From positions 1,054,001 to 1,118,000 of the forward strand of contig CP124680.1 of assembly GCA_029961745.1 (NCBI GenBank): a stretch of 64,000 nt of DNA, read 5' to 3'. Of this stretch, positions 9,703 through 31,219 are shown in pieces. The translations under genes were made by a program, and so were the position numbers. The DNA comes from Nocardioides sp. L-11A (GTDB lineage: Bacteria; Actinomycetota; Actinomycetes; Propionibacteriales; Nocardioidaceae). Under the pieces are notes generated by a model. That model ran no database searches. It was given only the letters and a program-made list of their open reading frames with translations, and was not told the origin of the DNA. Every line of letters starts with the position of its first letter. Within the stretch, counting starts at the first letter, position 1.

Positions 9703-9725
9703 CCGCTCCCTCACCTGGAGGTCCC

Positions 9726-13007: not shown

Positions 13008-14288
13008 ATGGCTGGATTGCGAAAGTCGCAGCGGGTCAGTGTGCTGGCCGCACTGGCTGTGGTGGGGGCGACCGCCCTCACGGGATGTGCCGAATCGGGC
13101 GGCTCCACCTCGTCGGGAGGCGACGGCGTCGACGCCGGTGCCACCCTCGAGGAGTACCAGAAGGCGTTCGAGGACGTCGATCCGATCGAGCTGCGCACGC
13201 AGTCTCCTGCCCCGAAGGGCTCCGTCACCGGCGCCAACGTCGAGGCCTACCTGAACGCGATCACGGAGTGGTCCGACGGCAAGGTGACCTTCGACGTCGC
13301 CTACTCCAACGGCGTCGCGGAGCCCGGCGAGACCGACAAGGCGCTCGTCGACGGTCGTCTCGACATCGCCCAGGTGCTCCCGATCTACAACCCGTCGGAG
13401 TACCCCGCCAACAACATGCTGATCGAGGCCGGGTTCATCTCCAACCACAGCCCCGTCGCCGGCGTGCTGCAGTCGAACGCCTGGCCCAACGAGGTCGCGT
13501 TCAACACCCCGGAGATCATGGCGGAGTACGACGACCACGGCATGGTCCCGCTCGTCCCGATCTACAACTCGGGATCGAACGCGCTCTTCTGCAGCGACAA
13601 GCGCACCGGGCTGAAGGACATCAAGGGCATCACCGCCGCCTCGGGTGGCACCGCGCAGAGCCACCAGATCGAGGCGCTCGGCGGCGAGGCGACCTCCGTG
13701 CCGTACCCGGAGCTCTTCGAGAGCCTGCAGCGCGGCGTCGTCGACTGCACCATCTCCAGCCCGACGGTCGGCGTCCTCGGTGGGTTCATCGAGGAGGCGC
13801 CGCAGGTCGTGCTCGACGAGGAGGCCGGCTTCGCGCTCGCCCCGGGCGGCATGGCCTTCAGCAAGACCACGTGGGACACCCTCCCGCTCGTCGTCCAGCA
13901 GCTGTTCTGGGACCGCCTCGACGTCTTCATCGAGACCAACCTGACCGGCAAGATCTGGCCCAACACAGTCGACGCGGTGACCAAGGCCAAGGCGAGCGGC
14001 GGCGGCTTCTTCTCCTTCGACGACGACGCGCGCTCCGCGCTGCAGGGCGCCAACGAGGAGCTGCTGTCCGGTCTCGGCGAGAAGGACGCGATCGAGGACG
14101 CCCCCGCGTTCGTCGAGGACATGCAGACGGCCGCCGACAGCTGGCTCGCCGCCGTCGGCGAGGTCGGCATCGACGACGAGGTCGGGTTCAACGACTTCGA
14201 CACCTGGTACGACGAGGGCAAGATCGATGTCTCGGCCTTCATCGACAAGCTGATGGCCGACGTCTTCGAGCCTCACCGCCCGAGCTGA
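13008..14288 (+). CDS. TRAP transporter substrate-binding lipoprotein (DctP family)
   Basis: A 426-residue extracytoplasmic binding protein. Residues 1-27 form a lipoprotein signal ending in the lipobox LTGC. The DctP-type fold is recognisable from the SNGVAEPGETDKALVDGRLD and LFESLQRGVVDC segments. The Arg that grips the ligand carboxylate in most TRAP binding proteins (DLKGxKIRV) is not present: the aligned segment is DIKGITAAS at residues 204-212. The ATG at 13008 is chosen because the signal peptide starts there. First gene of a long operon with its permeases, P450 and CoA enzymes. It is a clear paralogue of the protein at 28764. Confidence 0.93.
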   Translation: MAGLRKSQRVSVLAALAVVGATALTGCAESGGSTSSGGDGVDAGATLEEYQKAFEDVDPIELRTQSPAPKGSVTGANVEAYLNAITEWSDGKVTFDVAYSNGVAEPGETDKALVDGRLDIAQVLPIYNPSEYPANNMLIEAGFISNHSPVAGVLQSNAWPNEVAFNTPEIMAEYDDHGMVPLVPIYNSGSNALFCSDKRTGLKDIKGITAASGGTAQSHQIEALGGEATSVPYPELFESLQRGVVDCTISSPTVGVLGGFIEEAPQVVLDEEAGFALAPGGMAFSKTTWDTLPLVVQQLFWDRLDVFIETNLTGKIWPNTVDAVTKAKASGGGFFSFDDDARSALQGANEELLSGLGEKDAIEDAPAFVEDMQTAADSWLAAVGEVGIDDEVGFNDFDTWYDEGKIDVSAFIDKLMADVFEPHRPS

Positions 14289-14294
14289 TCCTCC

Positions 14295-14324
14295 GCGACC
14301 GGGCCGCGCACGCGGCCCGGTCGC
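14295..14324 (+). promoter_or_regulatory. Strong intercistronic stem-loop after the binding-protein gene
   Basis: Perfect 14-base inverted repeat (14295-14308 with 14311-14324) separated by only CA, between the binding-protein stop and the small-permease gene. Such hairpins commonly stabilise the upstream mRNA or partly terminate transcription, giving more binding protein than permease. A full terminator is less likely because the permease has no other visible promoter. Confidence 0.6.
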
Positions 14325-14347
14325 ACCCTCTACTCCTGGAGCTCGCA

Positions 14348-14914
14348 ATGACCGAACCGCAGCCGAAGTCACGGGCCACCCGTGCCGTGGAGCTGGCGAT
14401 CGAAGTCCCGGCGGTGGTGGTGACCTTCGTGATGATGGTCCACATCACGGCCAACGCGATCAGCCGCACCTTCTTCGACAACCCGATGCCGAACACGCTG
14501 GAGATCACGCAGTACTGGTATCTGCCGATCGTCGCGTTCCTCGGCTTCATCGCCGCCCAGCTGCGGGGACAGCACGTCGCGGCCGACCTCCTCTACGAGC
14601 GGTTCCCGGCCGTGACCCGCAAGTACGTGCTCGCGGTCGTCTTCCTGCTGGCCGCCGCCGTCTCGCTCGGCTTCGCCCGCTACGGCTGGGACGAGGCCGT
14701 CCACGCGATGGACATCCGCAAGACCGCCGGCGTCAGCGACCTGCCCGCCTGGCAGCCCTACTTCCTCGCGCCCATCGCCTTCGCCTCGCTGACCGTGCAG
14801 TTCGCCTACGCCGCGATCCACGCGCTGGTGAAGGGGGCCGACGAGGGTCCGGCCGGCGACCCCGACGAGCTGCTCGTGCTCGAGCAGTTCGCCGCCGACG
14901 AAAGGGGTGCTTGA
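14348..14914 (+). CDS. TRAP transporter small permease (DctQ family)
   Basis: A 188-residue membrane protein with four predicted transmembrane segments, at about residues 17-38, 52-72, 92-112 and 138-158. It has the family feature LEITQYWYLP before the second segment. With the large permease it forms the ion-driven importer fed by the lipoprotein encoded upstream. The ATG at 14348 follows CTGGAG. The C-terminus is acidic. Its stop overlaps the large permease start by one base. Confidence 0.92.
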   Translation: MTEPQPKSRATRAVELAIEVPAVVVTFVMMVHITANAISRTFFDNPMPNTLEITQYWYLPIVAFLGFIAAQLRGQHVAADLLYERFPAVTRKYVLAVVFLLAAAVSLGFARYGWDEAVHAMDIRKTAGVSDLPAWQPYFLAPIAFASLTVQFAYAAIHALVKGADEGPAGDPDELLVLEQFAADERGA

Positions 14915-16443
14915 TGAGCATCGACACGCACACCGCCGACGCGGTGCCGGCCGACGAGCCGCAGGCCGCGGGCTCCGGAGCGGCGCCCACCGCCGCCACG
15001 TCCCCGCCCGGCGCCGGCGCCGGCTCCTGGGTCGTCTTCACGGTGACCATGGTCTTCGTCGTCGGCTCGACGATCGCGATGTTCCTGCCGCTGGTTCCCG
15101 AGGCCATCGGCATCGCCGCGATCGTCTTGATGCTGTGCCTGATCTTCCTGCGCATGCCGGTCGCGGTCGCGATGATCATCCCGGCCCTGCTCGGCATGTA
15201 TGCCCTGCGGGGCGAGCTGCTGGTCGAGAGCACGCTCACCACGCTGCCCTACAGCCAGGTCGCCGAGTGGACCCTGAGCGTCGTCCCGATGTTCATCCTG
15301 ATGGGCCTGCTGCTGTGGAAGGCGGGTCTCACCGAGAGCGTCTACGCGGCCGGGCGGCAGTGGCTGGGCTGGATGCCGGGCGGCCTCGCCGTCGGCACCA
15401 ACATCGCCGGCGCCGGACTGGCCTCGGTCAGCGGGTCGTCGGTCGGGACGACCTACGCTCTGGCTCGCATCGGCATCCCCGAGATGCTCAAGGCGGGCTA
15501 CGACAAGAGGCTCGCGATCGGCTCGGTGATCGTCGCCGGTCTGCCCGGCCAGCTCATCCCGCCGAGCATCATGATGGTGATCTACGCCGGCATCGCCGAG
15601 GTCCCGATCGGCCCGCAGCTCCTCGCGGGCATCGGACCGGGCGTCCTGGTCGCGGTCCTGTTCACCCTGATGATCGTCATCTTCGCCCGCCGTTGGGCAC
15701 CGGACGCCGGGGCCGCCACGGCGGGGGAGCCGGTCACCTGGAGCACCCGGTTCGGGAGCCTCGCCAAGATCTGGCCGGTCCCGATCCTCATCGCGGTCAT
15801 CGTCTGGGGCATGTTCTCCGGCACCTTCACCGCCACCGAGGCCGGTGCCGTGGCCGCGGTCGTGTCGCTCCTCATCGCGCTCATCTGGCAGTGGGGCAAG
15901 AAGCCCCTGCGCACCATCGCCGACGGGGCCGTGGCCGCCGTCAGCAGCGTCGGCGCGATCTTCTTCATGCTGGTCGGCGTCGAGGCCCTCTCGCGGATGT
16001 TCACCCTCACCGGCATCAGCACCGGATTCGCCGACGTGGTCGAGTCGATGGACCTGAACCGGGTGTCGTTCCTCCTGCTGATGATGGTCGTCTACATCGT
16101 GCTGGGCACCTTCATGGAGCCCCTGCCGATGATGGTGCTGACCATCCCGATCCTGATGCCGACCCTGATCTCGCTCGACATCTCCCTGCTCTGGTACGGC
16201 GCGTTCGCGGTGCTGATGGGCGAGCTCGCGGTCGTCACGCCGCCGGTCGGGATCCTCGCCTTCATCATCCACCAGATCACGAAGGAGCCCGAGGTCAACC
16301 AGGGCCAGAACATCCGGCTCAACGACGTCTTCAACGCCTGCTGGTGGTTCATGCCGATGGCGATCCTGGTGACCATCGTGCTCATCTTCTTCCCGGAGAT
16401 CAGTACCTGGCTGCCCGACCTGGCCTCCGACAGCGCCAAGTAG
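14914..16443 (+). CDS. TRAP transporter large permease (DctM family)
   Basis: A 509-residue polytopic membrane protein with a Pro/Ala-rich N-terminal extension of about 40 residues, then roughly a dozen hydrophobic segments. Family motifs include ALLGMYALRG, VPMFILMGLLL, the pore-like NIAGAGLASVSGSSVGTTYA and LPGQLIPPSIMMVIYA. The ATG at 14914 (TGATG overlap, AAAGGGG upstream) is preferred to a TTG three bases earlier. It imports the ligand of the DctP lipoprotein with sodium or protons. It is the only DctM in the window, so it may also serve the second binding protein at 28764. Confidence 0.94.
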   Translation: MSIDTHTADAVPADEPQAAGSGAAPTAATSPPGAGAGSWVVFTVTMVFVVGSTIAMFLPLVPEAIGIAAIVLMLCLIFLRMPVAVAMIIPALLGMYALRGELLVESTLTTLPYSQVAEWTLSVVPMFILMGLLLWKAGLTESVYAAGRQWLGWMPGGLAVGTNIAGAGLASVSGSSVGTTYALARIGIPEMLKAGYDKRLAIGSVIVAGLPGQLIPPSIMMVIYAGIAEVPIGPQLLAGIGPGVLVAVLFTLMIVIFARRWAPDAGAATAGEPVTWSTRFGSLAKIWPVPILIAVIVWGMFSGTFTATEAGAVAAVVSLLIALIWQWGKKPLRTIADGAVAAVSSVGAIFFMLVGVEALSRMFTLTGISTGFADVVESMDLNRVSFLLLMMVVYIVLGTFMEPLPMMVLTIPILMPTLISLDISLLWYGAFAVLMGELAVVTPPVGILAFIIHQITKEPEVNQGQNIRLNDVFNACWWFMPMAILVTIVLIFFPEISTWLPDLASDSAK

Positions 16444-16489: not shown

Positions 16490-17689
16490 ATGACCGAGAC
16501 CCGCCGCGGCTGCCCGGTGAGCCACACCGACTACACGGGTCACGCCCCGATCCTCAGTCACTACGGCCTGCTCGACGCGGACCGCGAGGAGGCCCGCTTC
16601 CTCTACAACGACACCACCGAGCGCGGCTTCTTCATGCTGCAGCGCTACGACGACGTGCAGGAGGGGTTCCAGCAGCACGAGACCTGGACCACCGCCGTGC
16701 GCAGTGCGCTCCGGCCGGGCCTCGGCGAGCCGCTGCTCCCGCAGGACCTGAACGGCCAGCCCCACGTCAAGCTGCGCCGGATCCTCAACCAGTTCTTCGC
16801 GCCCGCCGCCGTGCGGCGCATGGAGCCGATGGCCAAGCAGCGGTGCATCGAGCTGATCGAGGAGATGAAGGGCGCGGGCAGCTGCGACTTCGTCAAGGAG
16901 TTCGCGATCCGCTACCCGACCGACATGTTCCTCGCGCTGCTAGGCCTCCCGGTCAGCGACGGGGAGCAGTTCCTCGAGTGGTCCGACGACTACTTCGGCG
17001 CGCTGCTCGCGGGCGACCCGGGCCGGGCCGAGGCCGCGAAGACCAGCATCATGAAGTACTTCGACGAGGCCGTGAACGAGCGGCGCGCCAACCCGCGCGA
17101 CCCCAAGGAGGACATGGTCTCCCGGCTCGTGCAGGCGCGCATCGACGACGAGGCGCTCACCCACGACGAGATCCTCACCATCTGCCTCACGCTGATGCTC
17201 GCGGGCCTCGACACCACCCGCAGCGCCCTGGGCTACATCTATGCCCACCTCGCCCAGCACGACGCCGACCGGCAGGCGATCATCGACGACCCGACGCTGA
17301 TCCCCAAGGCGGTCGAGGAGTTCCTCCGTCTCTACCCGCTGGTCTTCCAGGCGGGCCGCGAGGTGCAGGAACCGCAGGACTTCAACGGCCTCGAGCTCGA
17401 GAAGGGCGACGTGGTCTGGCTCGGCATCGCGCAGGCCAACCGCGACCCCCGGAAGTTCGAGGACCCCGACCGGTTCGACGTCGCGCGCCACAACGCCAAC
17501 CAGCACCTCGCCTTCGGCGGAGGCCCGCACCGTTGCCTCGGCATGCACCTGGCTCGCCTGGAGCTCAAGGTCGTGCTGGAGGAGTGGCACCAGCGCATCC
17601 CGGAGTACCGCATCAAGGAGGGCACCGAGCTCATGGAGCGTGGCGTCCAGCTGAGCATGTCCTCCCTCCCGCTCGAGTGGGACGTCTGA
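16490..17689 (+). CDS. Cytochrome P450
   Basis: A 399-residue soluble bacterial P450. The heme ligand is Cys349 in FGGGPHRCLG; the I-helix oxygen-binding motif is AGLDTT; ExxR is present in EEFLRL. The N-terminus lacks a membrane anchor. It is followed 3 bases later by a single-cluster ferredoxin, so it is a class I system needing a ferredoxin reductase, probably the one at 2673-3908. It likely hydroxylates the imported compound before oxidation to an acid; the site of attack is unknown. A strong AAGGAAGG precedes the ATG. Confidence 0.96.
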   Translation: MTETRRGCPVSHTDYTGHAPILSHYGLLDADREEARFLYNDTTERGFFMLQRYDDVQEGFQQHETWTTAVRSALRPGLGEPLLPQDLNGQPHVKLRRILNQFFAPAAVRRMEPMAKQRCIELIEEMKGAGSCDFVKEFAIRYPTDMFLALLGLPVSDGEQFLEWSDDYFGALLAGDPGRAEAAKTSIMKYFDEAVNERRANPRDPKEDMVSRLVQARIDDEALTHDEILTICLTLMLAGLDTTRSALGYIYAHLAQHDADRQAIIDDPTLIPKAVEEFLRLYPLVFQAGREVQEPQDFNGLELEKGDVVWLGIAQANRDPRKFEDPDRFDVARHNANQHLAFGGGPHRCLGMHLARLELKVVLEEWHQRIPEYRIKEGTELMERGVQLSMSSLPLEWDV

Positions 17690-17692
17690 GCC

Positions 17693-17908
17693 ATGTTCAT
17701 CGCCATCGACGAGAGCAAGTGCATGGGGCACGGACGCTGCTACGCCGTCGCGCCCGACCTGCTGACGGACGACGATGAGGGGTTCGTGGCCGAGCGCGGC
17801 CGCTGCTGGGAGCTCCCGGCCGACCTCGTCGGCCAGGCCCAGGACGCCGCCGATGCCTGCCCGGAGGGCGCGATCAGGGTCACGGAGGCAGCGCCCGCCG
17901 ATGCTTGA
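17693..17908 (+). CDS. P450-type ferredoxin with C-x2-H-x2-C cluster motif
   Basis: A 71-residue single-cluster ferredoxin. The ligands are Cys10, Cys16 and Cys56 (in ACPEGA); His13 takes the place of the second Cys of a classical four-Cys motif. Such C-x2-H-x2-C-(x)n-CP ferredoxins are common partners of actinobacterial P450s and may hold a 3Fe-4S cluster or a His-ligated 4Fe-4S cluster. It lies 3 bases after the P450 and overlaps the next gene by 8 bases. Confidence 0.93.
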   Translation: MFIAIDESKCMGHGRCYAVAPDLLTDDDEGFVAERGRCWELPADLVGQAQDAADACPEGAIRVTEAAPADA

Positions 17909-19124
17909 GCACCTCCGCGTCCTGGACCTCACCGACGAGCGGGGCCTGCTGTGCGGGCGGCTGCTCGCCGACCTCGGCGCCGACGTGGTCCAGGTCGAGC
18001 CGGCGGCCGGCTCCACCGCCCGCCAGGCTCCGCCGGTCGCCGACGGCGCCGCCGCGAGCTCGATGTACTGGGAGACCTTCGCCGCCGGGAAGCGCGGCGC
18101 GGCCTTCGACCTCGACGACCCCGAGGCGCTCGCGCGGCTGCGCCGGCTCGCCGGCGTCGCCGACATCGTCGTCACCTCGTGGCCGCGCGAGCGGCTGGAG
18201 GCGCTCGGGCTCGACCCGGAGAGCCTGCGCGGCGACCGTCCCGAGCTGGTCTACACGGTCGTGAGCGCCTTCGGGTGGGACGGCCCCAAGGCGGGGTACG
18301 CCGACACCGACCTCGTCGTGTGGGCCGCCGGCGGGCCGCTCGCCCCCCACCGCGACGGCGACCTTCCGCCCCTGCGGATCAGCGTCCCGCAGGCCTACCT
18401 GCACGCCGCGGCCGACGCCGCGGCCGGCACCCTGATCGCGGTCCTGGCGCGGGGCGCGACCGGGCGTGGCCAGGTCGTCGACGTCACCGCCCAGGAGGCG
18501 GTCGGCGTAGCGACCCTCGCGCGCGTGCTCGCGACCGCGGTCGGCGACGACCACCCGGAGTGGCAGACCACGCCCGGGCGGCGTACCGGTGGCCGCACCG
18601 ACCAGAGCGGCAGCGGCGCCGCCACGCCCAACAGCCTGAAGAAGTGGCACTGCCGCGACGGCATGGTCGAGCTGCACCTGTCCATGGGTCCGGCCGCCGG
18701 CGCGTTCACCAACAACCTCTTCGCCTGGATGAGGGACGAGGGCGCCGTCGACGAGCCGGTCGCCTCGTGGGACTGGCGCGTGGTGCCCGACCGGCTCGTC
18801 GCCGGCGAGCTGTCCCACGACGACCTCGACGTGGCCCGCGCCGCCGTGCGCGCGTTCCTGCTCACCAAGACCAAGGCCGAGGTCCTCGACGCGGCCATCC
18901 GCCGCCGCCTGCTGTGCATGGCGATCTTCGACATGGCCGACATCGCGGGCAGCCCGCACCTGGCGGAGCGCTCGTTCTGGGGGCAGGTCGACATCGGCTC
19001 CGTCGACGTCCGGATCCCCGGCCGGATGGCCCAGGTGCTCGGCCCGGAGGGGCCGCGGGTACGCGGCCGGGCGCCGCTGCTCGGCGAGCACACCGACGTC
19101 GTACTGAAGGAATGGCTGCGATGA
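17901..19124 (+). CDS. CaiB/BaiF-type CoA-transferase subunit lacking the catalytic Asp
   Basis: A 407-residue family III CoA-transferase homologue (LLADLGADVVQVEP, SLRGDRPELVY, ATGRGQVVDV). Aligned by the conserved GT and TGxGQ elements with the other two CaiB proteins here, the catalytic Asp position is Tyr166, in AYLHAAADAAAG. The protein is therefore probably not catalytic alone. The next gene encodes an intact homologue of the same length and overlaps by ATGA. This recalls BbsE/BbsF of benzylsuccinate CoA-transferase, in which one subunit lacks the Asp. The pairing is inferred. The ATG at 17901 lies inside the ferredoxin end. Confidence 0.88.
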   Translation: MLEHLRVLDLTDERGLLCGRLLADLGADVVQVEPAAGSTARQAPPVADGAAASSMYWETFAAGKRGAAFDLDDPEALARLRRLAGVADIVVTSWPRERLEALGLDPESLRGDRPELVYTVVSAFGWDGPKAGYADTDLVVWAAGGPLAPHRDGDLPPLRISVPQAYLHAAADAAAGTLIAVLARGATGRGQVVDVTAQEAVGVATLARVLATAVGDDHPEWQTTPGRRTGGRTDQSGSGAATPNSLKKWHCRDGMVELHLSMGPAAGAFTNNLFAWMRDEGAVDEPVASWDWRVVPDRLVAGELSHDDLDVARAAVRAFLLTKTKAEVLDAAIRRRLLCMAIFDMADIAGSPHLAERSFWGQVDIGSVDVRIPGRMAQVLGPEGPRVRGRAPLLGEHTDVVLKEWLR

Positions 19125-20344
19125 CGACCGACGCACTGTCCGGGCTGAAGGTGCTCGACCTGTCCTGGGTCGTCGCGGGCCCGCTCATCGGCCGCACGCT
19201 CGCCGACTTCGGCGCCACGGTCGTGCGGGTCGAGTCGAGCGTGCGGGTCGAGACCGCCCGCCTCATGCAGCCCTTCCACGGCGGCGTGCAGGACAAGGAG
19301 GGATCCGCGCTCTTCGGCAACTGCAACGCCGGCAAGCTCGGCCTCACCCTCGACCTCAAGTCGGAGCAGGGTCAGGAGGTCGTGCGCGACCTGGTGGCCT
19401 GGGCCGACGTCGTCGTCGAGTCGTTCTCGCCGGGTCAGCTGCGGAAGTGGGGTCTCGACTACGAGACGCTGAGCGCCGACAAGCCCGACCTGGTCATGCT
19501 CAGCACCTCGATCGCCGGGCAGCGCGGCCCGTGGTCCACGCTCGCCGGCTTCGGCAACGTCGGCTCCTCCCTCAGTGGCTTCCAGCACCTCGTCGGCTAC
19601 GAGGACCGGCTGCCGATGGGGACCTTCGGGCCCTACACCGACTACGTCGGGCCGCGGCTGGCGCTGGTCACGCTGCTGGCCGCCCTGGAGAACCGGCGCC
19701 GGACCGGAGAGGGCGCCTACATCGACGTCTCCCAGGTCGAGGCGGGCGTCTTCTTCCTCTCGCCCCAGGTCGCCCAGTTCGGGTACGACGGCACGATCGC
19801 CGAGCGGCACGGCAACCGGGACCCCCGGTTCGCGCCGCACGGCGTCTTCGCGTGCCTGCCGGTCGACGGCAAGGAACGCTTCGTGGCGGTCGCCGTGCGC
19901 AGCCACCAGGAGTGGCGCGCCCTCGCACGGGCGATGGGGCGCCCCGACCTCGCCGACCGCGCCGACCTCGCGACGGACGAGGGCCGGCGGGCCGCGCAGG
20001 ACGAGCTCGAGGCGGCCGTCGCCGACTGGACGGCCGGCCGGGACGCCACGGACGTCGAGCGGACGCTGCAGTCCGTCGGCGTGCCCGCCCACCTGGCCGT
20101 CACCAGCGACGACTACCCGGACGACGACCAGCTCGCGCACCGTCACCACCTCGTGGAGCTGCCGCACCCGCGGCACGGAACCACCTGGGTCGAGGGGCCG
20201 CGCTCCGCGCTGTCCGAGACACCCGGCCGACCGCGCAGCGCCGCGCCGACGCTGGGCCAGCACAACGAAGAGGTCCTCACGGAGATCCTCGGCTACGACG
20301 CCGAGCGGGTCGCCGTACTCACCGAAGGAGGGATCCTGCGATGA
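19121..20344 (+). CDS. CaiB/BaiF-type CoA-transferase, catalytic
   Basis: A 407-residue family III CoA-transferase that transfers CoA between two acids. The N-terminal pattern LKVLDLSWVVAGPLIGRTLADFG is typical. Asp174 in GPYTDYVG aligns with the catalytic Asp that forms the aspartyl-CoA intermediate. The ATG at 19121 overlaps the preceding stop (ATGA); an ATG 9 bases earlier is possible. It probably forms a heteromer with the preceding degenerate subunit and activates the acid before the MaoC and aldolase steps encoded downstream. Confidence 0.92.
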   Translation: MTTDALSGLKVLDLSWVVAGPLIGRTLADFGATVVRVESSVRVETARLMQPFHGGVQDKEGSALFGNCNAGKLGLTLDLKSEQGQEVVRDLVAWADVVVESFSPGQLRKWGLDYETLSADKPDLVMLSTSIAGQRGPWSTLAGFGNVGSSLSGFQHLVGYEDRLPMGTFGPYTDYVGPRLALVTLLAALENRRRTGEGAYIDVSQVEAGVFFLSPQVAQFGYDGTIAERHGNRDPRFAPHGVFACLPVDGKERFVAVAVRSHQEWRALARAMGRPDLADRADLATDEGRRAAQDELEAAVADWTAGRDATDVERTLQSVGVPAHLAVTSDDYPDDDQLAHRHHLVELPHPRHGTTWVEGPRSALSETPGRPRSAAPTLGQHNEEVLTEILGYDAERVAVLTEGGILR

Positions 20345-20955
20345 CCGCGGCAGCGGACACCGAACAGGACTGGCAGGCCGACTGGCAGCCGGTGATCGAC
20401 GCGATCGGCACGGACTTCGCCGAGGGCGCGATCACCTGGGGCGGCGATGCCGTCGAGCGCGGCGCCGTCCGCCGCTACCTCGAGCCCCTCGAGCTCGACT
20501 GCGCCCTGCACACCGACCCGGAGGTCGCCCGCGCGGCCGGACACGCCGACGTGACCATGCCGGCGACCGGCGTCATCGCGTGGACCATCCCCGCAGCGTG
20601 GCAGCCCGGCCAGGTGCTGTTCGACAGCGCCGATCGGGACGCCCAGCCCGTGCACAGCGCGATCAACAACGCCGACATGACCCTCGGGCCGCGCACCACC
20701 GGCTTCTTCGGCACCGACATCGAGGTCGACTTCCTGCGCGACGTGATCGCGGGGGAGCGGATCGGACGGCGCGGAAAGACCCTCCTGAGCTGCAAGCCCA
20801 AGGAGACCGCCGTCGGTCGGGGCGCCTTCATGACCTGGGAGAGCGAGATCGTCACCGAGGAGCTCGAGGTCGTCGGCCGGATCCGGATCGGCACCTACGC
20901 CTACGTCCCGCATGCGAAGGATGCCGGGAAGGCCGGGAAGGGAGACGCCTCGTGA
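20341..20955 (+). CDS. MaoC-fold protein, FAS1-like dehydratase N-terminal type
   Basis: A 204-residue hot-dog-fold protein of the MaoC/FAS1-type dehydratase group. It lacks a recognisable D-x4-H hydratase motif but has DIEVDFLRDVIAGERI and MTWESEIVT segments seen in the non-catalytic halves of heteromeric enoyl-CoA hydratases such as ChsH2. It is coupled by ATGA to the CoA-transferase and by GTGA to the next MaoC gene, which has the active-site motif. A heteromeric hydratase of the two is inferred. The Lys/Gly-rich C-terminus is probably disordered. Confidence 0.85.
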   Translation: MTAAADTEQDWQADWQPVIDAIGTDFAEGAITWGGDAVERGAVRRYLEPLELDCALHTDPEVARAAGHADVTMPATGVIAWTIPAAWQPGQVLFDSADRDAQPVHSAINNADMTLGPRTTGFFGTDIEVDFLRDVIAGERIGRRGKTLLSCKPKETAVGRGAFMTWESEIVTEELEVVGRIRIGTYAYVPHAKDAGKAGKGDAS

Positions 20956-21506
20956 GCGCCGAGACCCCACTGCTGGAGGGCCGCCGGTTCGAGGACGTCG
21001 CCGTCGGCGAGCGGCTGCCCGTCGTCGAGCTTCCGCTGACCGTCTACCGCCTGGTGATGGCCGCGGGGAGCAACCGCGACTTCAACTCGATCCACCACAA
21101 CAGCGAGTACGCCCGGGCGACCGGCGCGGAGGAGATGTACGCCAACACCTCCTTCCTGATGAGCGCCTGGGAGCGCAGCGTGCGCGACTGGATGGGGCTC
21201 GCGGGCCGGATCCGCGGCATCCGGGGGTTCCGGATGCGCAGCTTCAACTACGCCGGCGACACGCTCCGCGTCGTCGCCGAGGTCGCGGCCACCCGCCTGG
21301 AGGGCGACGTCGGCGTCGTGGAGATCGCCATCCGTTGCGAGAACCGCTCCGGCGTCAGTGTCGGACCGGGCGTCGTCGAGGTGGAGCTGCCGCGTCGTAC
21401 CGACGACGGGGCCACCGCCGACACGACCACCGCCGACACGACCGCCGCCGACACGACCGCCGCCGACACGACCGCCGCCGACACGACCGGACAGGAGACC
21501 CCGTGA
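20952..21506 (+). CDS. MaoC-family (R)-enoyl-CoA hydratase with repeat tail
   Basis: A 184-residue hot-dog hydratase. Residues 37-51 (SNRDFNSIHHNSEYA) match the R-hydratase active site, with Asp and His in the right spacing. It would hydrate a 2-enoyl-CoA, giving a 3-hydroxyacyl-CoA ready for retro-aldol cleavage by the next gene product. The last 30 residues are a low-complexity tail of five Ala-Asp-Thr-Thr-type units encoded by a 15-bp repeat, unlike the family. The GTG at 20952 overlaps the previous stop. Probably pairs with the preceding MaoC protein. Confidence 0.9.
   Translation: MSAETPLLEGRRFEDVAVGERLPVVELPLTVYRLVMAAGSNRDFNSIHHNSEYARATGAEEMYANTSFLMSAWERSVRDWMGLAGRIRGIRGFRMRSFNYAGDTLRVVAEVAATRLEGDVGVVEIAIRCENRSGVSVGPGVVEVELPRRTDDGATADTTTADTTAADTTAADTTAADTTGQETP
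21417..21491. repeat. 15-bp tandem repeat inside the MaoC gene, five copies
   Basis: Five head-to-tail units of GCCGACACGACCGCC from 21417; the first and last differ by one or two bases. The period is in frame and encodes Ala-Asp-Thr-Thr-Ala/Thr, so the copy number can change without breaking the reading frame. It lies at the extreme 3' end of the gene, just before the aldolase start. Confidence 0.92.
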
Positions 21507-22663
21507 CCGCCGCCATCGCCGGACTCGGCATGACCGAGATGGGCAAGATCTACGGCCGCACCCCGACCCAGCTCGCGGTCGAGGCGATCAGCCGCGCCGC
21601 CGAGGACGCCGGGCTCGGCCTCGCCGACATCGACGGCCTCTACGTCAACCCCGGCGTCAAGAACGACACCGACCTGCGGCTGCAGTCGAGCCTGCAGATG
21701 CGGCACACCCGCCTCCTGGCGACCATCCAGGGCTTCGGCTCCTCCGCCGGCCAGATGGTGCAGTACGCCGCGATGGCGATCGACGCCGGCATGGCCGAGG
21801 TCGTCGCCTGCGTGTACGCCGACGCGCCGCTGAAGGAGGGCAAGCGCGCCGGCGCGGCGTACCCCGGCCAGGCCCGGGCGATGGAGGGTGTCGGCTCGCT
21901 GCCGTTCGCGGCCGGGCTCAAGGCCGCGCCGGAGCGGTACGCCGTGGCCGCGCGACGGCACATGGAGACCTACGGCACCACGAGCGAGCAGCTCGGCGCC
22001 GTCGCCGTGGCGGCGCGCCAGTGGGCGGCCATGAACCCGGCGGCGCAGATGCGGGAGCCGATGACCCTCGAGGACCACCAGTCCTCGCGGATGATCGCCG
22101 ACCCGCTGCGGCTGCTCGACTGCTGTCTGGTCAGCAACGGCGCGGTGGCGATCATCGTCACCAGCGCCGAGCGCGCGGCCACGCTGCGGCAGCCGCCCGT
22201 CCACGTGTGGGGCTGGGGCCAGGGCCACCCGGGCTACGTCAACCGCCGCGACAGCGAGTTCGGCCTCGTCACCGGTGCCGCGCAGTCGGGTGCCGACGCG
22301 CTCTCGATGGCGGGCGTCGGCGTCGAGGAGATCGGCGTGCGGGAGCTCTACGACTGCTTCACCTACACCACGCTCATCACGCTGGAGGACTACGGCTTCT
22401 GCGCCAAGGGCGAGGGCGGCGAGTTCGTCGCCAGCGGCGCGATCGCGCCCGGCGGCTCGCACCCGACCAACACCGGCGGTGGCGAGCTGTCGTCGTTCTA
22501 CATGTGGGGGATGACCCCGCTCTCCGAGGCGGTCATCCAGGCGCGCGGTCAGGGCGGCGAGCGCCAGGTGGCCGATCACGACCTGGTCATGGTCAGCGGC
22601 AACGGCGGCGTCCTCGACTTCCACTCCACCCTGATCCTCAGCCCCCACCCGAAGACGAGGTGA
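21503..22663 (+). CDS. Ltp-type thiolase-fold protein, probable acyl-CoA aldolase
   Basis: A 386-residue thiolase-superfamily protein of the lipid-transfer/SCP-x branch. The nucleophilic Cys of thiolases (CxSG) is absent: the segment is QGFGSSAGQMV. The thiolase GHPxGATG motif is replaced by GGGELSSFYMWGM. Tyr-rich RELYDCFTYTT and SSFYMW regions are present. These changes, and the DUF35 gene directly downstream, match the Ltp2-ChsH2(DUF35) retro-aldolase group that shortens steroid side chains by C-C cleavage. I therefore expect retro-aldol cleavage of a 3-hydroxyacyl-CoA rather than thiolysis. The GTG at 21503 overlaps the MaoC stop. Confidence 0.88.
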   Translation: MTAAIAGLGMTEMGKIYGRTPTQLAVEAISRAAEDAGLGLADIDGLYVNPGVKNDTDLRLQSSLQMRHTRLLATIQGFGSSAGQMVQYAAMAIDAGMAEVVACVYADAPLKEGKRAGAAYPGQARAMEGVGSLPFAAGLKAAPERYAVAARRHMETYGTTSEQLGAVAVAARQWAAMNPAAQMREPMTLEDHQSSRMIADPLRLLDCCLVSNGAVAIIVTSAERAATLRQPPVHVWGWGQGHPGYVNRRDSEFGLVTGAAQSGADALSMAGVGVEEIGVRELYDCFTYTTLITLEDYGFCAKGEGGEFVASGAIAPGGSHPTNTGGGELSSFYMWGMTPLSEAVIQARGQGGERQVADHDLVMVSGNGGVLDFHSTLILSPHPKTR

Positions 22664-22668
22664 CCCCG

Positions 22669-23094
22669 ATGTCCCTGGCGCCCTCCGCGGCCCCCTCCCC
22701 GGCCCCGGTCGTCCGCGACGACCTGTCCGGCCCCTTCTTCGACGCCTCCGCCGAGGGGCGCCTGCTGCTGCGCTACTCCCCGTCGAGCGGCGAGTGGTCG
22801 GAGCCGGCCGCGATGGTCTGCTCGCTCACCCAGGCTGCCGACCTCGAGTGGCGCGAGGCCTCCGGCCGCGGCTCCCTCGTGTCCTGGACGGTCAAGCCCG
22901 GCCGCCCGCGCGACGACCAGCCCGCGGTCGACACGGTGATCGGCATCGTCGAGACCGAGGAGGGGCCCTGGCTCACCCTCCTGCTGCCCGAGGTCACGGA
23001 CCGGTCGGTGCTGCGCGTCGGCGCGTCCGTCGTCGTCGGCTTCGTCCAGCCCGAGGGGAGCGAGCACCTTCCGGTCGGCCGGCTCGTGGGCTGA
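22669..23094 (+). CDS. DUF35 / OB-fold protein, aldolase partner
   Basis: A 141-residue protein with the DUF35 layout: an N-terminal hook, then an OB fold (GSLVSWTVKPG, VIGIVETEEGPWLTLLL). Members usually have four Cys in the N-terminal rubredoxin-like zinc ribbon; here that region (LLLRYSPSSGEW to AAMVCS) keeps only one Cys, so zinc is probably not bound. It is expected to complex with the Ltp-type protein and stabilise acyl-CoA binding. The ATG at 22669 with GAGGTG upstream is chosen; a GTG at 22660 overlapping the previous stop is possible. Last gene of the operon. Confidence 0.85.
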   Translation: MSLAPSAAPSPAPVVRDDLSGPFFDASAEGRLLLRYSPSSGEWSEPAAMVCSLTQAADLEWREASGRGSLVSWTVKPGRPRDDQPAVDTVIGIVETEEGPWLTLLLPEVTDRSVLRVGASVVVGFVQPEGSEHLPVGRLVG

Positions 23095-24288: not shown

Positions 24289-25098
24289 GTGGCCGCGATC
24301 GACGTCGAGACCCGAGGTCCCCACGACAATGTCCGGTGGATCACGATCAACCGTCCCGAGCGGCTCAACGCCTACGACCTCGACATGGCGCGCACGCTGA
24401 TCGCCGCCTTCGAGGACGCGGCGTCCGCCGACGCGGTCGTGCTCACCGGGGCCGGTGGCGCGTTCTGCGCCGGCGGTGCGCTCGACCAGCTCGGGGAGCC
24501 GGACCCGGAGCAGCTGCGTGCGCTCTTCACCGGCTCGCTGCGCCTGGTCGACGCCATCCGCTCGTGCCCGCGGCCGGTCATCGCCGCCGTCGACGGCCCG
24601 GCCGCCGGCGGGGGGAACGAGCTCGTCGTCGCCTGCGACTTCGCGATCGCCACGGAGCGCTCGACCTTCGGCCAGACCGGGCCCCGCGTGGGCTCCGCGC
24701 CGGTGCTCGGCGCCACCAACCTGATGGCGGTGCAGATCGGCGAGAAGCGCGCCAAGGAGATGGCGATGATGTGCCGGCGCTACTCCGCCGAGCAGGCGCT
24801 CGCCATGGGCCTGGTCAACGAGGTCGTCCCCGACGGCGGTCTGGAGGCGGCGGTCGAGCGGTGGCTCGGCGAGATCGAGCGACTCAGCCCCCGCTACCTC
24901 GAGATCGCCAAGATCAGCTCCAACCAGTGGTGGAACGCCTCCAAGGACAACATGTCCGCCGGGCTCGGGATGCTCATCCAGGCCATCGGCAGCGAGGACA
25001 TGCGCGAGGGCGCCAACGCCTTCCTCGAGAAGCGCAAGCCCGACTTCCGCGCCGCACGGCGCGCCCAGCACCAGCCGACCGAGAAGGACGACCAGTGA
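24289..25098 (+). CDS. Enoyl-CoA hydratase/isomerase, BadI/MenB-like
   Basis: A 269-residue crotonase. The oxyanion hole segments are GAGGAFCAGGALDQ and GPAAGGGNELV. The C-terminal half ends in REGANAFLEKRKPDF, a signature shared with MenB and BadI (2-ketocyclohexanecarboxyl-CoA hydrolase), not with ordinary FadB-type hydratases. A role in ring opening of a cyclic 2-oxoacyl-CoA is therefore a serious possibility; hydration is the alternative. The GTG at 24289 follows a long GAGGAGGAGGAAGA. It heads an operon with a CoA ligase, a CitE-like lyase and an alcohol dehydrogenase. Confidence 0.9.
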   Translation: MAAIDVETRGPHDNVRWITINRPERLNAYDLDMARTLIAAFEDAASADAVVLTGAGGAFCAGGALDQLGEPDPEQLRALFTGSLRLVDAIRSCPRPVIAAVDGPAAGGGNELVVACDFAIATERSTFGQTGPRVGSAPVLGATNLMAVQIGEKRAKEMAMMCRRYSAEQALAMGLVNEVVPDGGLEAAVERWLGEIERLSPRYLEIAKISSNQWWNASKDNMSAGLGMLIQAIGSEDMREGANAFLEKRKPDFRAARRAQHQPTEKDDQ

Positions 25099-26762: not shown

Positions 26763-26765
26763 GTC

Positions 26766-27659
26766 GTGCATCCCTACCGCACCGTCCTCTTCGTCCCGGC
26801 GCACAAGCCGGAGTGGGTCTTCAAGGCGCTGGCGTCGGGAGCCGACTGCGTGGTCCTCGACCTCGAGGACTCCGTCCCGCAGGACCTCAAGCCCGGAGCG
26901 CGGGCGACGGTCCGCGAGACCCTGCCGAAGCTGCGCGCCGAGCGTCCCGAGGTCGGCCTCTTCGTCCGGCCCAACGGGCTCGCGACCCGGCTCGCCGGCG
27001 CGGACCTCGAGGCGGTCGTGTGCCCCGAGCTCGACGGGGTCTTCGCGCCGAAGATCAAGGACGCCACCGACGTCCTGCGCTGGGAGACCCTCATCGACTG
27101 GTTCGAGGCGCGCAACGGCGCCGAGGGCCTGGAGATGATCGTCCCGGTCGAGATGGTCGACGCCATCACGAACTGCTTCGAGATCGCGGCCGCCTCGCCC
27201 CGCGTCGGCGCCATGATCGGCCCGACCTCCGAGCACGCCGACATCGCCCGGGCCGTGGGCTTCCGGCAGTCGCGGGAGGGATCGGAGACGCTCTACCTGC
27301 GCAGCCGCATCCTGCTGGCGTGTCGGCAGTACGGCCTGCACCCACTGACCGCCCTGTGGGAGGACCTCGCCGACCTCGAGGGCCTGCGGGAGTTCGCCGA
27401 CTACGGCTTCCAGCTCGGCTTCCGAGGAATGGTCGCCATCCATCCGAGCCACGTGCCGGTCGTCAACGACGTCTTCACGCCCTCCGACGAGGAGGTCGCG
27501 TACTACGCGGAGCTCGTCGCCACCGTGGACGCCGCGGTGGCCCGCGGGGAGGGCGCGGTGCGCTTCCGGGGCCAGCACGTCGACCTGGCCCATGCCGACA
27601 AGGCCCGGGACTGGCTCGCGCACGCCCGGCTCGTGCGGGGAGAGTCACCGGGTCGATGA
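26766..27659 (+). CDS. HpcH/HpaI-family CoA ester lyase (CitE-like)
   Basis: A 297-residue TIM-barrel lyase. LFVPAHKPEW at the start, CVVLDLEDSVP with the metal-binding acidic residues, and the IVPVEM and GFRGMVAIHPSHV segments are diagnostic of CitE/malyl-CoA lyase relatives. Such enzymes cleave or form 3-hydroxyacyl-CoAs such as citramalyl-CoA, releasing acetyl-CoA, pyruvate or glyoxylate. It begins 3 bases after the CoA ligase with a GTG and overlaps the next gene by ATGA. It probably processes a short dicarboxylic fragment late in the pathway. Confidence 0.9.
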   Translation: MHPYRTVLFVPAHKPEWVFKALASGADCVVLDLEDSVPQDLKPGARATVRETLPKLRAERPEVGLFVRPNGLATRLAGADLEAVVCPELDGVFAPKIKDATDVLRWETLIDWFEARNGAEGLEMIVPVEMVDAITNCFEIAAASPRVGAMIGPTSEHADIARAVGFRQSREGSETLYLRSRILLACRQYGLHPLTALWEDLADLEGLREFADYGFQLGFRGMVAIHPSHVPVVNDVFTPSDEEVAYYAELVATVDAAVARGEGAVRFRGQHVDLAHADKARDWLAHARLVRGESPGR

Positions 27660-28696: not shown

Positions 28697-28733
28697 CCCT
28701 TGCGCGTGATCCGAATCACTGATAAGGATTATA
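28693..28733 (+). promoter_or_regulatory. Promoter/operator region of the second TRAP binding protein
   Basis: TTGACC at 28693-28698 is followed after 22 bases by GATAAGGATTA (28721-28731). The acyl-CoA dehydrogenase promoter at 38207-38245 has TTGACA, the same 22-base gap and GATAATGATTA. A small inverted repeat, GTGAT-CCGA-ATCAC, lies between (28706-28719). This argues for shared control and for a separate transcript starting here. Confidence 0.55.
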
Positions 28734-28763
28734 TCCATCATCAGCGCTAGGAAAGGTGCCCCC

Positions 28764-30056
28764 ATGCTCACAGTTCTGCGGACGGGGTGGCGGTCCCGCG
28801 GCGCCGCGCTCGCCGGTCTCGCCGCCGCGACGCTCGCGCTCACGGCGTGCTCCGGCTCGTCGGCGACCGAGGAGACCAACGCCGGCGGCAGCAGCATCGA
28901 GTACGGCGCCGACAAGTCGGCGTACGTGGACGCGCTGGCCGACATGGATCCGGTGACGCTCGCCATCCAGTCGACCGGGCCGAAGGGGTCGGCGACCGGG
29001 CGACGCTTCGAGGACTACGCCGCGGCCGTCGAGGAGTGGTCGGGCGGGAAGATCACCTTCGAGTTCACCTACTCCAACGGCATGGCGCCTCCCAACGAGG
29101 TGCACCTCGCGCTGGCCGACGGTCGGCTCGACATCGGCTCGGTCATGCCGGCCCTGGTGCCCGACGACCTGCCGGCGGCCAACGCCCTCGGGGACCTCAG
29201 CCACCTCGGCCGCCAGACCCCCGTCGACTGGATGCTGCAGTGGCACGGGATCATGCTCGACCTGGCGGCCGCCACCGACGACGTCGACCGCGAGTACGAG
29301 AAGCACGGGATGAAGCTGCTCCTGCCCGCCTTCGGGTCCGGAGCCTATATGCCCTACTGCACCGATCCGGGCGCCTCGACCGACGAGCTCGACGGCCGGG
29401 GGGTCGCGAGCCAGAGCAAGGTCCAGAACCGTGAGGCCGAGGCGCTCGGCCTCACGCCGACGTCGATCAGCTACGCCGAGATGTTCGAGGGCCTGCAGCG
29501 CGGTGTCATCGACTGCGCCTTCAGCACCGTCACCGGCGCGGCCCTGGGCGGCTTCATCCCCGCGGCACCGCACGTGGCCTACGCCGAGGAGGAGGGCTTC
29601 AACGCCCCGGCCGGCACCATCGCGATCAGCCTGGCGCGCTGGAACGAGCTGCCGCTCGCGGCGCAGCAGCTGATGTACGACCGGCTCGACGTGCTCCTGC
29701 AGGCCAACTTCGAGGGCGCCTGGGAGAACACCGCGGCGGCCGTCGGGGCCGTGCTCGACGCCGACGGCGCGCTCACACCGTTCGACGCGGACGTCGTGGA
29801 GCGGCTCGCGGACGTCCACGCCGCCGTCGAGGAGGAGGTGGCCGGCACCGATGCGGTGACCGACGGCGAGGCGCTCGTCGATGCCGCGCGGGAGGCCGAG
29901 ACGGAGTGGGCCGGCCGCATCGACGCCCTCGGGATCGACGGGGTCGGCACGTCGTACGAGGACTTCCCGGCCTGGTACGCGCAGGGGGCCCCCGACCTGC
30001 AGCCCTACTTCGACGCCCTCTGGGACGGCGCGATGGGCGATCGGCGGCCGTCGTGA
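28764..30056 (+). CDS. TRAP-type substrate-binding lipoprotein, second copy
   Basis: A 430-residue DctP-family protein with an N-terminal lipoprotein signal (lipobox LTAC). It parallels the protein at 13008 throughout, with shared TFEFTYSNG-like, ALADGRLDIG and MFEGLQRGVIDC segments. Its ligand-Arg position is also missing: ELDGRGVAS spans residues 208-216, with Ala215 at the Arg site. No permease genes follow it; the DctQM pair at 14348-16443 is the nearest candidate partner. AGGAAAGG precedes the ATG. It is coupled to the acyl-CoA dehydrogenase gene by GTGA. Confidence 0.92.
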   Translation: MLTVLRTGWRSRGAALAGLAAATLALTACSGSSATEETNAGGSSIEYGADKSAYVDALADMDPVTLAIQSTGPKGSATGRRFEDYAAAVEEWSGGKITFEFTYSNGMAPPNEVHLALADGRLDIGSVMPALVPDDLPAANALGDLSHLGRQTPVDWMLQWHGIMLDLAAATDDVDREYEKHGMKLLLPAFGSGAYMPYCTDPGASTDELDGRGVASQSKVQNREAEALGLTPTSISYAEMFEGLQRGVIDCAFSTVTGAALGGFIPAAPHVAYAEEEGFNAPAGTIAISLARWNELPLAAQQLMYDRLDVLLQANFEGAWENTAAAVGAVLDADGALTPFDADVVERLADVHAAVEEEVAGTDAVTDGEALVDAAREAETEWAGRIDALGIDGVGTSYEDFPAWYAQGAPDLQPYFDALWDGAMGDRRPS

Positions 30057-31219
30057 ACTTCGAGCCCGATCCCGACCACGACGACATCAGGCAGGGGATG
30101 CGCGACCTCTGCGCGCGCTTCCCGGACGAGTACTGGGCGGAGCGGGACGAGCGGCACGAGTTCCCCTGGGACTTCTACCGCGCCGTCACCGACGCCGGCT
30201 GGCTGGGCCTGACCATCCCCGAGGAGTACGGCGGCGGCGGGCTGGGCGTCACCGAGGCGGCGATCGTCGAGCGCGAGATCGCAGCGTCCGGGGCGGGCAT
30301 GGGTGGCTGCAGCGCGGTGCACATCGGGATCTTCGGGTTCGAGCCGATCCTGCGTCACGGCAGCGAGGAGCTGAAGCAGCGCTTCCTGCCCCGGGTGCCG
30401 AAGGGCGACCTGCAGATCTCCTTCGCCGTCACCGAGCCCGACGCCGGCACCGACACCACGAACCTGTCGACGTTCGCGCGCAAGGTCGACGGGGGCTGGC
30501 TGGTCTCGGGGAAGAAGGTCTGGATCTCCAACGCCCAGCAGGCCGAGCGGATGCTGCTGCTGGCGCGCACGACACCGAAGGAGCAGTGCGCACGTCGTAC
30601 CGACGGGCTGACGGTGTTCTTCGCCCCCGTCGACCGGGAGCGGGTCACCATCCGGCCGATCCCGAAGATGGGCCGCAACTCCGTGGACAGCAACGAGCTC
30701 TTCATCGACGACCTCTTCGTCGCCGACGAGGACGTGGTCGGCGAGGTCGGGCGCGGCTTCCAGGTGATCCTCACCGGCCTCAACGCCGAGCGGGTGGTCG
30801 CGGCCAACGCGATGCTCGGCATCGGCGAGGCGGCCCTGCGCCGGGGCGTGCAGTACGCCAAGGACCGCGTCGTCTTCGGCCGCCCGATCGGGCAGAACCA
30901 GGGCCTGTCCTTCCAGCTCGCCGAGGCCAAGATCCGGATCGAGGCCGCGGACGCGGTGCTGCAGCGGGCGACCTGGCTCGTCGACCAGCAGCGCCCCTGC
31001 GGCGCGGAGGCCAACTACGCCAAGTGGCTGTGCGCGGAGGCCGGCTACTACGCCGCCGACGTCGCGCTGCAGGTGCACGGCGGCATGGGCTATAGCAAGG
31101 AGTTCCACGTCGAGCGGTACTTCCGCGAGGCGCGGCTGATGCGGATCGCCCCGATCAGCCAGGAGATGGTGCTCAACTACGTCGCCGAGCACGTGCTCGG
31201 CCTTCCGAGGAGCTATTGA
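30053..31219 (+). CDS. Acyl-CoA dehydrogenase family protein
   Basis: A 388-residue FAD-dependent dehydrogenase with IPEEYGGGGLG, the FAD-contact SFAVTEPDAGTDTTN, SGKKVWISNA and the C-terminal QVHGGMGYSKE. The position of the common catalytic Glu (YEGTSE) reads IAPISQE, with Pro in its place, so the base must be elsewhere, as in the isovaleryl-CoA or FadE-type variants, or the protein has another role. The GTG at 30053 overlaps the binding-protein stop. It likely introduces the double bond hydrated by the next gene product. Confidence 0.92.
   Translation: MNFEPDPDHDDIRQGMRDLCARFPDEYWAERDERHEFPWDFYRAVTDAGWLGLTIPEEYGGGGLGVTEAAIVEREIAASGAGMGGCSAVHIGIFGFEPILRHGSEELKQRFLPRVPKGDLQISFAVTEPDAGTDTTNLSTFARKVDGGWLVSGKKVWISNAQQAERMLLLARTTPKEQCARRTDGLTVFFAPVDRERVTIRPIPKMGRNSVDSNELFIDDLFVADEDVVGEVGRGFQVILTGLNAERVVAANAMLGIGEAALRRGVQYAKDRVVFGRPIGQNQGLSFQLAEAKIRIEAADAVLQRATWLVDQQRPCGAEANYAKWLCAEAGYYAADVALQVHGGMGYSKEFHVERYFREARLMRIAPISQEMVLNYVAEHVLGLPRSY

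Follow-up and report, generated by a model that had tools for sequence, protein, structure and literature searches.

The window analysed here, a stretch of 64,000 nucleotides from Nocardioides sp. L-11A (contig CP124680.1, positions 1,054,001 to 1,118,000), contains a conserved block of seven genes, the last four of which encode two MaoC proteins (MaoC1 and MaoC2), a thiolase-fold protein (Ltp) and a DUF35 protein. We consider it likely that these four proteins form a module of hydratase and aldolase that acts on a carboxylic acid, probably not a steroid, and in which the acid would be activated by a CoA transferase (CoAT1-CoAT2) and finally cleaved by a retro-aldolase bound to DUF35. This reading is drawn from protein families, subunit mapping, active-site residues, gene order and the occurrence of the block in genomes without two steroid markers; the reaction type is likely, and each step of the mechanism is proposed by analogy with relatives. 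A preliminary description had placed four overlapping genes at 20341–23094 and suggested that they have the same parts as ChsH1-ChsH2-Ltp2, the hydratase-aldolase of steroid side-chain degradation. The four genes and their position were confirmed, and by PDB matches and profiles the four proteins appeared to map subunit by subunit onto that system. Overlaps of 4 bp were found for CoAT2/MaoC1, MaoC1/MaoC2 and MaoC2/Ltp, but Ltp and DUF35 are separated by a 5-bp gap. No description of the module was found in the one open-licence library searched, only steroid and unrelated papers.

The spread of the block was surveyed by tblastn of 21 window proteins against 80 Ltp-related loci. The order P450-CoAT1-CoAT2-MaoC1-MaoC2-Ltp-DUF35, all on one strand, was found in 18 of the 80 loci (L009–L025 and L054), which belong to Nocardioides, Pimelobacter, Aeromicrobium, Actinomadura, Thermocatellispora, Thermobifida and Streptomyces. 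Because seven genes keep their order and strand in these loci, the association of the four genes is not due to chance. It had been described that the module follows a P450 and CoA transferases, and this arrangement was kept across all 18 loci, although the P450 copy of L024 was read only in part (224 aa). A diverged copy (L111) lacks the P450; there, CoAT1-CoAT2-MaoC1-MaoC2-Ltp-DUF35 are accompanied by an MFS transporter. In the examined DNA of the other 62 loci, no tblastn match to MaoC1 or MaoC2 was found. The distribution of MaoC1 as a marker was patchy: within the genus 9 of 196 genomes had it, counting that of the window, and within the class 7 of 394. The closest named relatives of Ltp were from Nocardioides (96% identity). 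On a contig of 8,691 bp from a Frankiales metagenome-assembled genome (L064), a CoAT1 relative (54%) lies after Ltp-DUF35; this may be an intermediate form of the block that is truncated where the contig ends.

MaoC1 was assigned by Pfam to FAS1_DH_region (PF13452). Its top PDB match as a single sequence was the MaoC domain of ChsH2 (E 0.005). A profile of 21 sequences (A3: the window protein, 18 of 120 listed relatives and two loci, with L113 excluded for a stop in the stretch) gave the same domain, in two entries, as the sole PDB match at E ≤ 0.1, with an E value of 1.9e-7. For MaoC2, the best match of the profile (A2) was ChsH1 with 113 bits, compared with 63 bits for HadB; its score against the Pfam family MaoC (PF01575) was 20.1 bits, under the 27-bit cut-off. 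MaoC2 had been regarded as the motif-bearing protein, in agreement with the canonical D43-x4-H48 found in 19 of 19 block members. The description of MaoC1 as motif-less was not borne out, since all 19 block members, and likewise the distant L111, L112 and L113, carry D-x3-H where D-x4-H would be canonical; in the A3 alignment His57 was invariant and Asp53 nearly so. In the known ChsH1-ChsH2 pair, the Asp/His dyad is present in ChsH1 only (PMC11321319). MaoC1 adjoins MaoC2 in all 18 block loci and in the four distant loci (L111, L112, L113 and L116). The two proteins are thus predicted to form a heteromeric hydratase with one subunit carrying the canonical dyad and one lacking it.

Five copies of a 15-bp tandem repeat, encoding an ADTTA-type tail, were observed at the 3' end of MaoC2 (window 21415–21489). 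The repeat occurred in none of the 18 block relatives, of which L009, L010 and L054 have short Thr-rich tails at this place. MaoC1-MaoC2 pairs without Ltp in the examined DNA (∼20 kb for L112 and L116) were observed at L112:8669–10889, L116:9393–11562 and L113:8877–9877. These three loci were among the MaoC1 hits, two from the class set and one from the genus set, and in L112 and L116 a relative of acyl-CoA dehydrogenase lies directly 5' of the pair.

Ltp contains the Pfam domain Thiolase_C_1 (PF22691), and its PDB matches were 4u4e (chain named Thiolase, which we take to be from Sphaerobacter), TcLtp2 (6ok1) and CtSal (9myr). It had been described as a thiolase-fold protein without the nucleophilic Cys. 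This proved correct: in profile alignments (A1, the window protein and 29 of 120 listed proteins) the nucleophile position is Gly79, and Gly was found there in all 50 family rows of a 63-row tree, namely the window, the 18 block loci and 31 of the 62 others (every second locus). A YDCF or YDCY motif, together with a Tyr matching Tyr344 of TcLtp2, was found in 81 of 81 sequences (the window and the 80 loci). The active site is thus a hybrid, with Tyr283-Cys285 being Sal-like and Tyr333 being Ltp2-like. TcLtp2 has YDHF with Tyr344, and CtSal has YDCY with Gln352, Tyr302 and Cys304 of CtSal both being essential (PMC12329534). Compared with TcLtp2, the second Tyr is kept but His is replaced by Cys in all 81 sequences; compared with Sal, YDC is kept but the Gln position is occupied by Tyr. 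Since the family has YDC and the second Tyr, both known proton donors are present. YDCY homologues were mentioned for cholesterol-degrading actinobacteria, so that part of the Ltp family may have been noticed already; in the available part of that article no account of the Tyr-Cys-Tyr combination was found (PMC12329534).

An ordinary thiolase would have the nucleophilic Cys and HDC, and neither was found in Ltp. The thiolase fold and the database names of its relatives (among the 120 listed: acetyl-CoA acetyltransferase, thiolase, and thiolase C-terminal domain or family protein) would fit such a function. The Gly in 50 of 50 rows and YDC for HDC in 81 of 81 sequences speak against it. In a 23-row tree, in which the 62 other loci were thinned to 8 and no Ltp3 or Ltp4 reference was included, CtSal, the 4u4e group, Ltp2 and the window family were joined with 100/99 support, apart from the thiolases. 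An ordinary thiolase is therefore hardly credible, and thiolase function was rejected. As 7,985 of 8,000 scored candidates matched at E ≤ 1e-20, the family is large, and many of its members may be misnamed. Within the aldolase clade, the window family was sister to the Ltp2 pair and not within it (89/84), and grouping with CtSal was not rejected (p-AU of 0.18).

Outside the block, a crotonase match was found directly 5' of Ltp in 14 of the 62 loci (read by eye), so that a neighbouring hydratase is frequent in the Ltp family. Several further arrangements were observed. In Actinomadura (L083:3829–12737 and similar loci), the genes near Ltp-DUF35 encode an ABC transporter, an aminotransferase of class III and a protein of the NMO (nitronate monooxygenase) family; in L083 and L029 an AraC-type regulator was also among the identified neighbours. 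Ltp-DUF35 of the L083-like loci probably has a different role. A 327-aa frame with two OB_ChsH2_C matches (G000:C1:2773693–2774364, in L095) adjoins two thiolase-like genes, one of them with Gly at the nucleophile position.

The fourth protein had been called a DUF35 protein, and OB_ChsH2_C (PF01796), a ChsH2-type OB fold, was indeed its only Pfam domain; the zinc-ribbon domain PF12172 was not found. Its single-sequence match to the ChsH2 counterpart had an E value of 0.002. DUF35 was present in 80 of 80 loci, directly 3' of Ltp in 78 of them and upstream, with a crotonase between, in the other 2. The pattern C-x2-C...C-x2-C was missing from all 19 block members; three of the four zinc ligands were lost in 18 of them, and all four in L025. 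In contrast, the pattern was kept in 46 of the 62 other loci, and the DUF35 protein of the window genome's own canonical sterol operon has PF12172 and thus keeps its zinc ribbon. Of the remaining loci, fourteen are without the ligand set (read by eye), L064 is without one ligand, and L060 has four Cys with shifted spacing. The fourteen zinc-ribbon-less DUF35 genes beside Ltp were observed in L036, L039, L041, L048, L052, L057, L062, L068, L070, L071, L072, L074, L078 and L088. Because the ligand set was lost in the block and in these loci, the loss probably occurred more than once.

The CoA-transferase genes resemble those of benzylsuccinate CoA-transferase. CoAT1 matched chain A of 9fn0 with 132 bits (next 89) and CoAT2 matched chain B with 205 bits (next 162), the two chains presumably being BbsE and BbsF. 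In the column of the Asp that we take to be the catalytic one, Asp was found in CoAT2 in 19 of 19 block members, while CoAT1 has Tyr or Phe in 19 of 19, and the same pattern was seen in the 9fn0 chains. A heteromer of the benzylsuccinate type (class III), with the Asp in one subunit only, is predicted from this. It is supported by the finding that CoAT1 and CoAT2 are encoded in one open frame of 819–862 aa in 9 of the 18 block loci (L013, L017–L023 and L025).

The relation of the block to steroid degradation was evaluated in the whole genome, which is a single contig of 5.68 Mb with an estimated completeness of 100%. A canonical sterol operon was found at 3.13 Mb (L096), with an Ltp2 of 72% identity to TcLtp2 and a ChsH1 of 69%. 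In this operon ChsH2 is encoded by two genes, one for MaoC and one for DUF35, which overlap by four bases. The separate MaoC and DUF35 genes had been taken as a distinguishing mark of the window module; this was not borne out, because the own sterol operon is split alike, and the split was rejected as a sign of novelty. It was reported that ChsH2-MaoC and ChsH2-DUF35 of Comamonas, expressed apart, kept both activities, and that the aldolase requires DUF35 (PMC12502768). For Nocardioides simplex, one gene beyond chsE2, chsH2, chsH1 and ltp2 is listed in the igr set (PMC7807495). The remark that no steroid ring genes were in view held for the window, where none was recognised among the subset of open reading frames scanned, but not for the genome, which has KshA.

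Two markers, the KshA domain and Ltp2, which do not stand for the whole steroid pathway, were examined in 20 block-bearing genomes, i.e. those of the 18 loci plus G357 and G449 (the latter with a diverged block); completeness was given for G357 and not for the locus-derived genomes. The KshA domain was absent from 7 of the 20 (L013, L017, L018, L021, L024, L054 and G357). In six of these seven (L021 being the exception), the best match to Ltp2 of the window genome was at most 42%, compared with at least 67% in the other 14 genomes. Of these six genomes, three come from Aeromicrobium, two from Thermobifida and one from Nocardioides, and G357, a single contig of 100% completeness, is among them. 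A plain paralogue of the sterol operon was rejected on this basis. Because the block occurs in genomes without the two markers, the substrate is probably other than a steroid.

The block might instead be an extra module for a steroid side chain that is not handled by the canonical igr-type operon. Its closest characterised relatives are steroid enzymes, and the window genome has KshA and the canonical Ltp2 operon. Two neighbouring genes gave matches of this kind, though far under the cut-offs: an OYE gene (31704–33695) with 280 of 825 bits against BaiCD, and an acyl-CoA ligase gene (25095–26762) with 171 of 900 against steroid-22-oyl-CoA synthetase. We regard this explanation as unlikely, given the block genomes without the markers, the CoA-transferase pair fixed in the block in place of an acyl-CoA ligase, and the scanned window reading frames, in which no steroid gene was recognised. 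The suggestion of a retro-aldol chain-shortening system for a different substrate therefore stood in part: subunit mapping, the aldolase clade and the separation from two steroid markers agree with it, but its argument from the split genes does not hold.

For the preferred hydratase-aldolase module, the following sequence of steps is proposed. The acid would be imported by the TRAP transporter and activated by the two-subunit class III transferase of the benzylsuccinate type, with CoAT1 inert and CoAT2 catalytic. For a saturated acid, an acyl-CoA dehydrogenase would next introduce the double bond. The 2-enoyl-CoA would be hydrated by the MaoC1-MaoC2 heteromer, in which MaoC2 provides the Asp/His dyad and MaoC1 may shape the pocket. 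Retro-aldol cleavage would then be performed by Ltp, held by the zinc-less DUF35; Tyr283 may take the proton of the beta-hydroxyl group, and Cys285 and/or Tyr333 may protonate the enolate. An acyl-CoA of reduced chain length is predicted as one product, with a ketone or an aldehyde as the other. As MaoC1-MaoC2 also occurs without Ltp, and Ltp beside a crotonase, the module seems to have been put together from two pairs that can be exchanged.

Several observations weigh against this proposal. The single-sequence match of MaoC1 to its counterpart is weak, MaoC2 scores under the Pfam cut-off, and the match of DUF35 is weak as well, with DUF35 of an archaeal thiolase complex scoring slightly better (0.0013 against 0.002). 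The sister relation of the family to Ltp2 is unstarred, with the CtSal alternative at p 0.18, and the tree program gave a warning about long branches that join where thiolases and aldolases separate. No hydratase was among the identified neighbours of Ltp-DUF35 in Actinomadura L083 and L029, so that the pairing is not general. The case for acyl-CoA dehydrogenase as a necessary component became weaker: for the nine block loci without a close homologue in the flank, a clear orthologue elsewhere was found in only two genomes (87% and 76%, next 54%). In addition, with the KshA domain in 13 and an Ltp2 orthologue in 14 of the 20 block genomes, most carriers may degrade steroids.

It is also conceivable that the two pairs do not act in sequence, MaoC1-MaoC2 serving ordinary beta-oxidation and Ltp-DUF35 having another role, e.g. 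aldol addition or decarboxylation. The pairs without Ltp in L112, L116 and L113, the first two with acyl-CoA dehydrogenase, are in line with this, as is the occurrence of Ltp-DUF35 without MaoC1-MaoC2 in the examined DNA of 62 of the 80 loci; moreover, weak decarboxylation of malonyl-CoA was reported for TbSLP, a protein with YDCF (PMC12329534). Nevertheless, the genes overlap tightly in the window, their order is fixed in 18 loci, and the same two pairs constitute one working unit in characterised relatives (PMC12502768, PMC11321319). A non-sequential action is thus doubtful.

With regard to the substrate of the proposed module, two specific possibilities were considered. The first is an isoprenoid acid with an alpha,beta double bond and a beta-methyl group, for instance abscisic acid. 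Hydration of its CoA ester would yield a tertiary alcohol, for which retro-aldol reaction would be the only cleavage, giving a methyl ketone (dehydrovomifoliol) and acetyl-CoA. Such an acid would need no acyl-CoA dehydrogenase in the seven-gene core, and a P450 is present. Rhodococcus sp. P1Y converts abscisic acid to dehydrovomifoliol (PMC7996341), the enzymes of this conversion are given as not identified in two articles (PMC9599779, PMC6460035), and an Ltp relative of 70% occurs in Rhodococcus sp. KBS0724 (Ltp match only). On the other hand, no link between the block and any abscisic acid degrader was found in the literature, with Rhodococcus not searched genus-wide, and a dicarboxylic acid is suggested no less strongly, by the CitE-like lyase and by the CoA transferase of benzylsuccinate type. 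We regard this substrate as very improbable.

The second is an aldolytic benzylsuccinate-like route of aerobic actinobacteria, in which a diacid would be converted to succinyl-CoA and a ketone or aldehyde by a third aldolase clade with a Tyr-Cys-Tyr site. In this speculative route, a substituted succinate or itaconate-like diacid would receive CoA from succinyl-CoA via CoAT1-CoAT2; after desaturation, hydration by MaoC1-MaoC2 and cleavage by Ltp-DUF35, the succinyl-CoA released would feed the next activation. A hydroxyacyl dehydrogenase and a thiolase step would then be unneeded. This version is quite unlikely.

The positions of the block genes and of the associated genes are collected in Table 1.

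Table 1. Genes of the conserved block and associated genes (window positions).
Feature	Position	Strand	Basis
TRAP transporter DctP-DctQ-DctM	13125..16443	+	NCBIfam TRAP_S1 for DctP; DctM in 14/18 block loci
Cytochrome P450, first of the seven block genes	16490..17689	+	PF00067; top PDB match CYP101J2
CoAT1, benzylsuccinate-CoA-transferase-like subunit, predicted to lack the catalytic Asp	17895..19124	+	9fn0 chain A match
CoAT2, subunit with the presumed catalytic Asp	19136..20344	+	9fn0 chain B match; Asp 19/19
MaoC1, predicted ChsH2-MaoC-like partner subunit of the hydratase	20341..20955	+	PF13452; profile A3 match; ATG start
MaoC2, predicted ChsH1-like catalytic hydratase subunit (Asp43, His48)	20952..21506	+	Profile A2; GTG start
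Ltp, putative thiolase-fold retro-aldolase (Tyr283/Cys285/Tyr333, Gly79)	21503..22663	+	Tree; motif counts; GTG start
DUF35 (OB fold), proposed Ltp partner, zinc-ribbon ligand set lost	22669..23094	+	PF01796 only; ATG start
CitE/HpcH-type lyase, possible downstream step, peripheral	26766..27659	+	PF03328; in 14/18 block loci
Acyl-CoA dehydrogenase, candidate enoyl-CoA source, peripheral	30056..31219	+	Within the flank of 9/18 block loci

For the scan, the coding region of DctP was taken as 13125–14288 with a provisional start codon position. For CoAT1 the part used starts at 17895, while the longest open reading frame starts at 17775. TRAP genes were found in 14 of the 18 block loci, and the transporter is a probable importer of the acid substrate. 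A second DctP gene lies apart from DctQ and DctM at 28764–30056 and is kept in the Thermobifida block loci too. Taken together, the genes at 24289–33695 (acyl-CoA ligase, CitE-like lyase, acyl-CoA dehydrogenase, RipB-like MaoC and OYE) might constitute a pathway acting on a branched C5 dicarboxylic acid, but all NCBIfam scores were under the cut-offs. Just 5' of the TRAP genes, sulfatase and formylglycine-generating-enzyme genes were observed at 9660–12880. They might point to a sulfated substrate, with sulfatase matches in 6 of the 18 block loci and the formylglycine-enzyme gene in 3, where the examined flank ends.

Compared with the preliminary description, the steroid-aldolase analogy holds and the argument for novelty from the split genes does not. 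The features newly indicated by the sequences are the benzylsuccinate-type CoA transferases, the Sal/Ltp2 hybrid aldolase site and the lost DUF35 zinc ligands. In the surveyed literature, the characterised thiolase-fold retro-aldolases of bacteria act on steroids. If the proposal is true, carbon-carbon bond breaking by the thiolase fold extends to a non-steroid acid. A third clade with both proton donors, the Cys of Sal and the Tyr of Ltp2, would shed light on the evolution of aldolases from thiolases, and with a DUF35 that lacks zinc the function of the zinc ribbon can be tested.

Among the known systems, Ltp3 and Ltp4 are described as aldol lyases for C24-branched sterols and are listed under KstR in Nocardioides simplex (PMC7807495). 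A paralogue in the window's own genome (L091a), with a YDAF motif, grouped with 4u4e in the tree, which had no reference for these two. The closest system is ChsH1-ChsH2-Ltp2 (igr operon; PDB 4W78/4WNB and 6OK1), the hydratase-aldolase of the steroid C3 side chain, which has the same four parts and gave the best or near-best matches. Both have one MaoC protein with and one without the canonical dyad, a thiolase fold without the nucleophile, and the second Tyr (Tyr344 of TcLtp2). They differ in that the window has YDCF instead of YDHF, a DUF35 without the zinc ligand set and a MaoC1 that keeps its His, and in that the module lies in a CoA-transferase/P450/TRAP block which also occurs in genomes where neither an Ltp2 orthologue nor the KshA domain was found. 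The separate DUF35 gene is no real difference.

With benzylsuccinate CoA-transferase (9FN0) the block shares, by prediction, a two-subunit class III enzyme having the catalytic Asp in one subunit. The corresponding route, anaerobic toluene degradation, presumably also has DUF35 and a thiolase-fold protein at its end, in benzoylsuccinyl-CoA thiolase (7PXP). We take that route to have a thiolase site, a crotonase hydratase and a dehydrogenase pair; in contrast, the window has an aldolase-type site and a MaoC pair, its core lacks a dehydrogenase pair, and a P450 is in the block. Finally, Sal-Shy of Proteobacteria (PDB 9MYR), the aldolase of the bile-acid C5 side chain, likewise has the Tyr-Asp-Cys motif, the thiolase fold and a DUF35 partner (PMC12329534). 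Unlike in the window, however, Gln352 of Sal takes the place of Tyr333, and Shy fuses DUF35 to a homodimeric MaoC instead of having two separate MaoC proteins, its DUF35 keeping a Cys3His zinc site (PMC12329534, PMC11321319).

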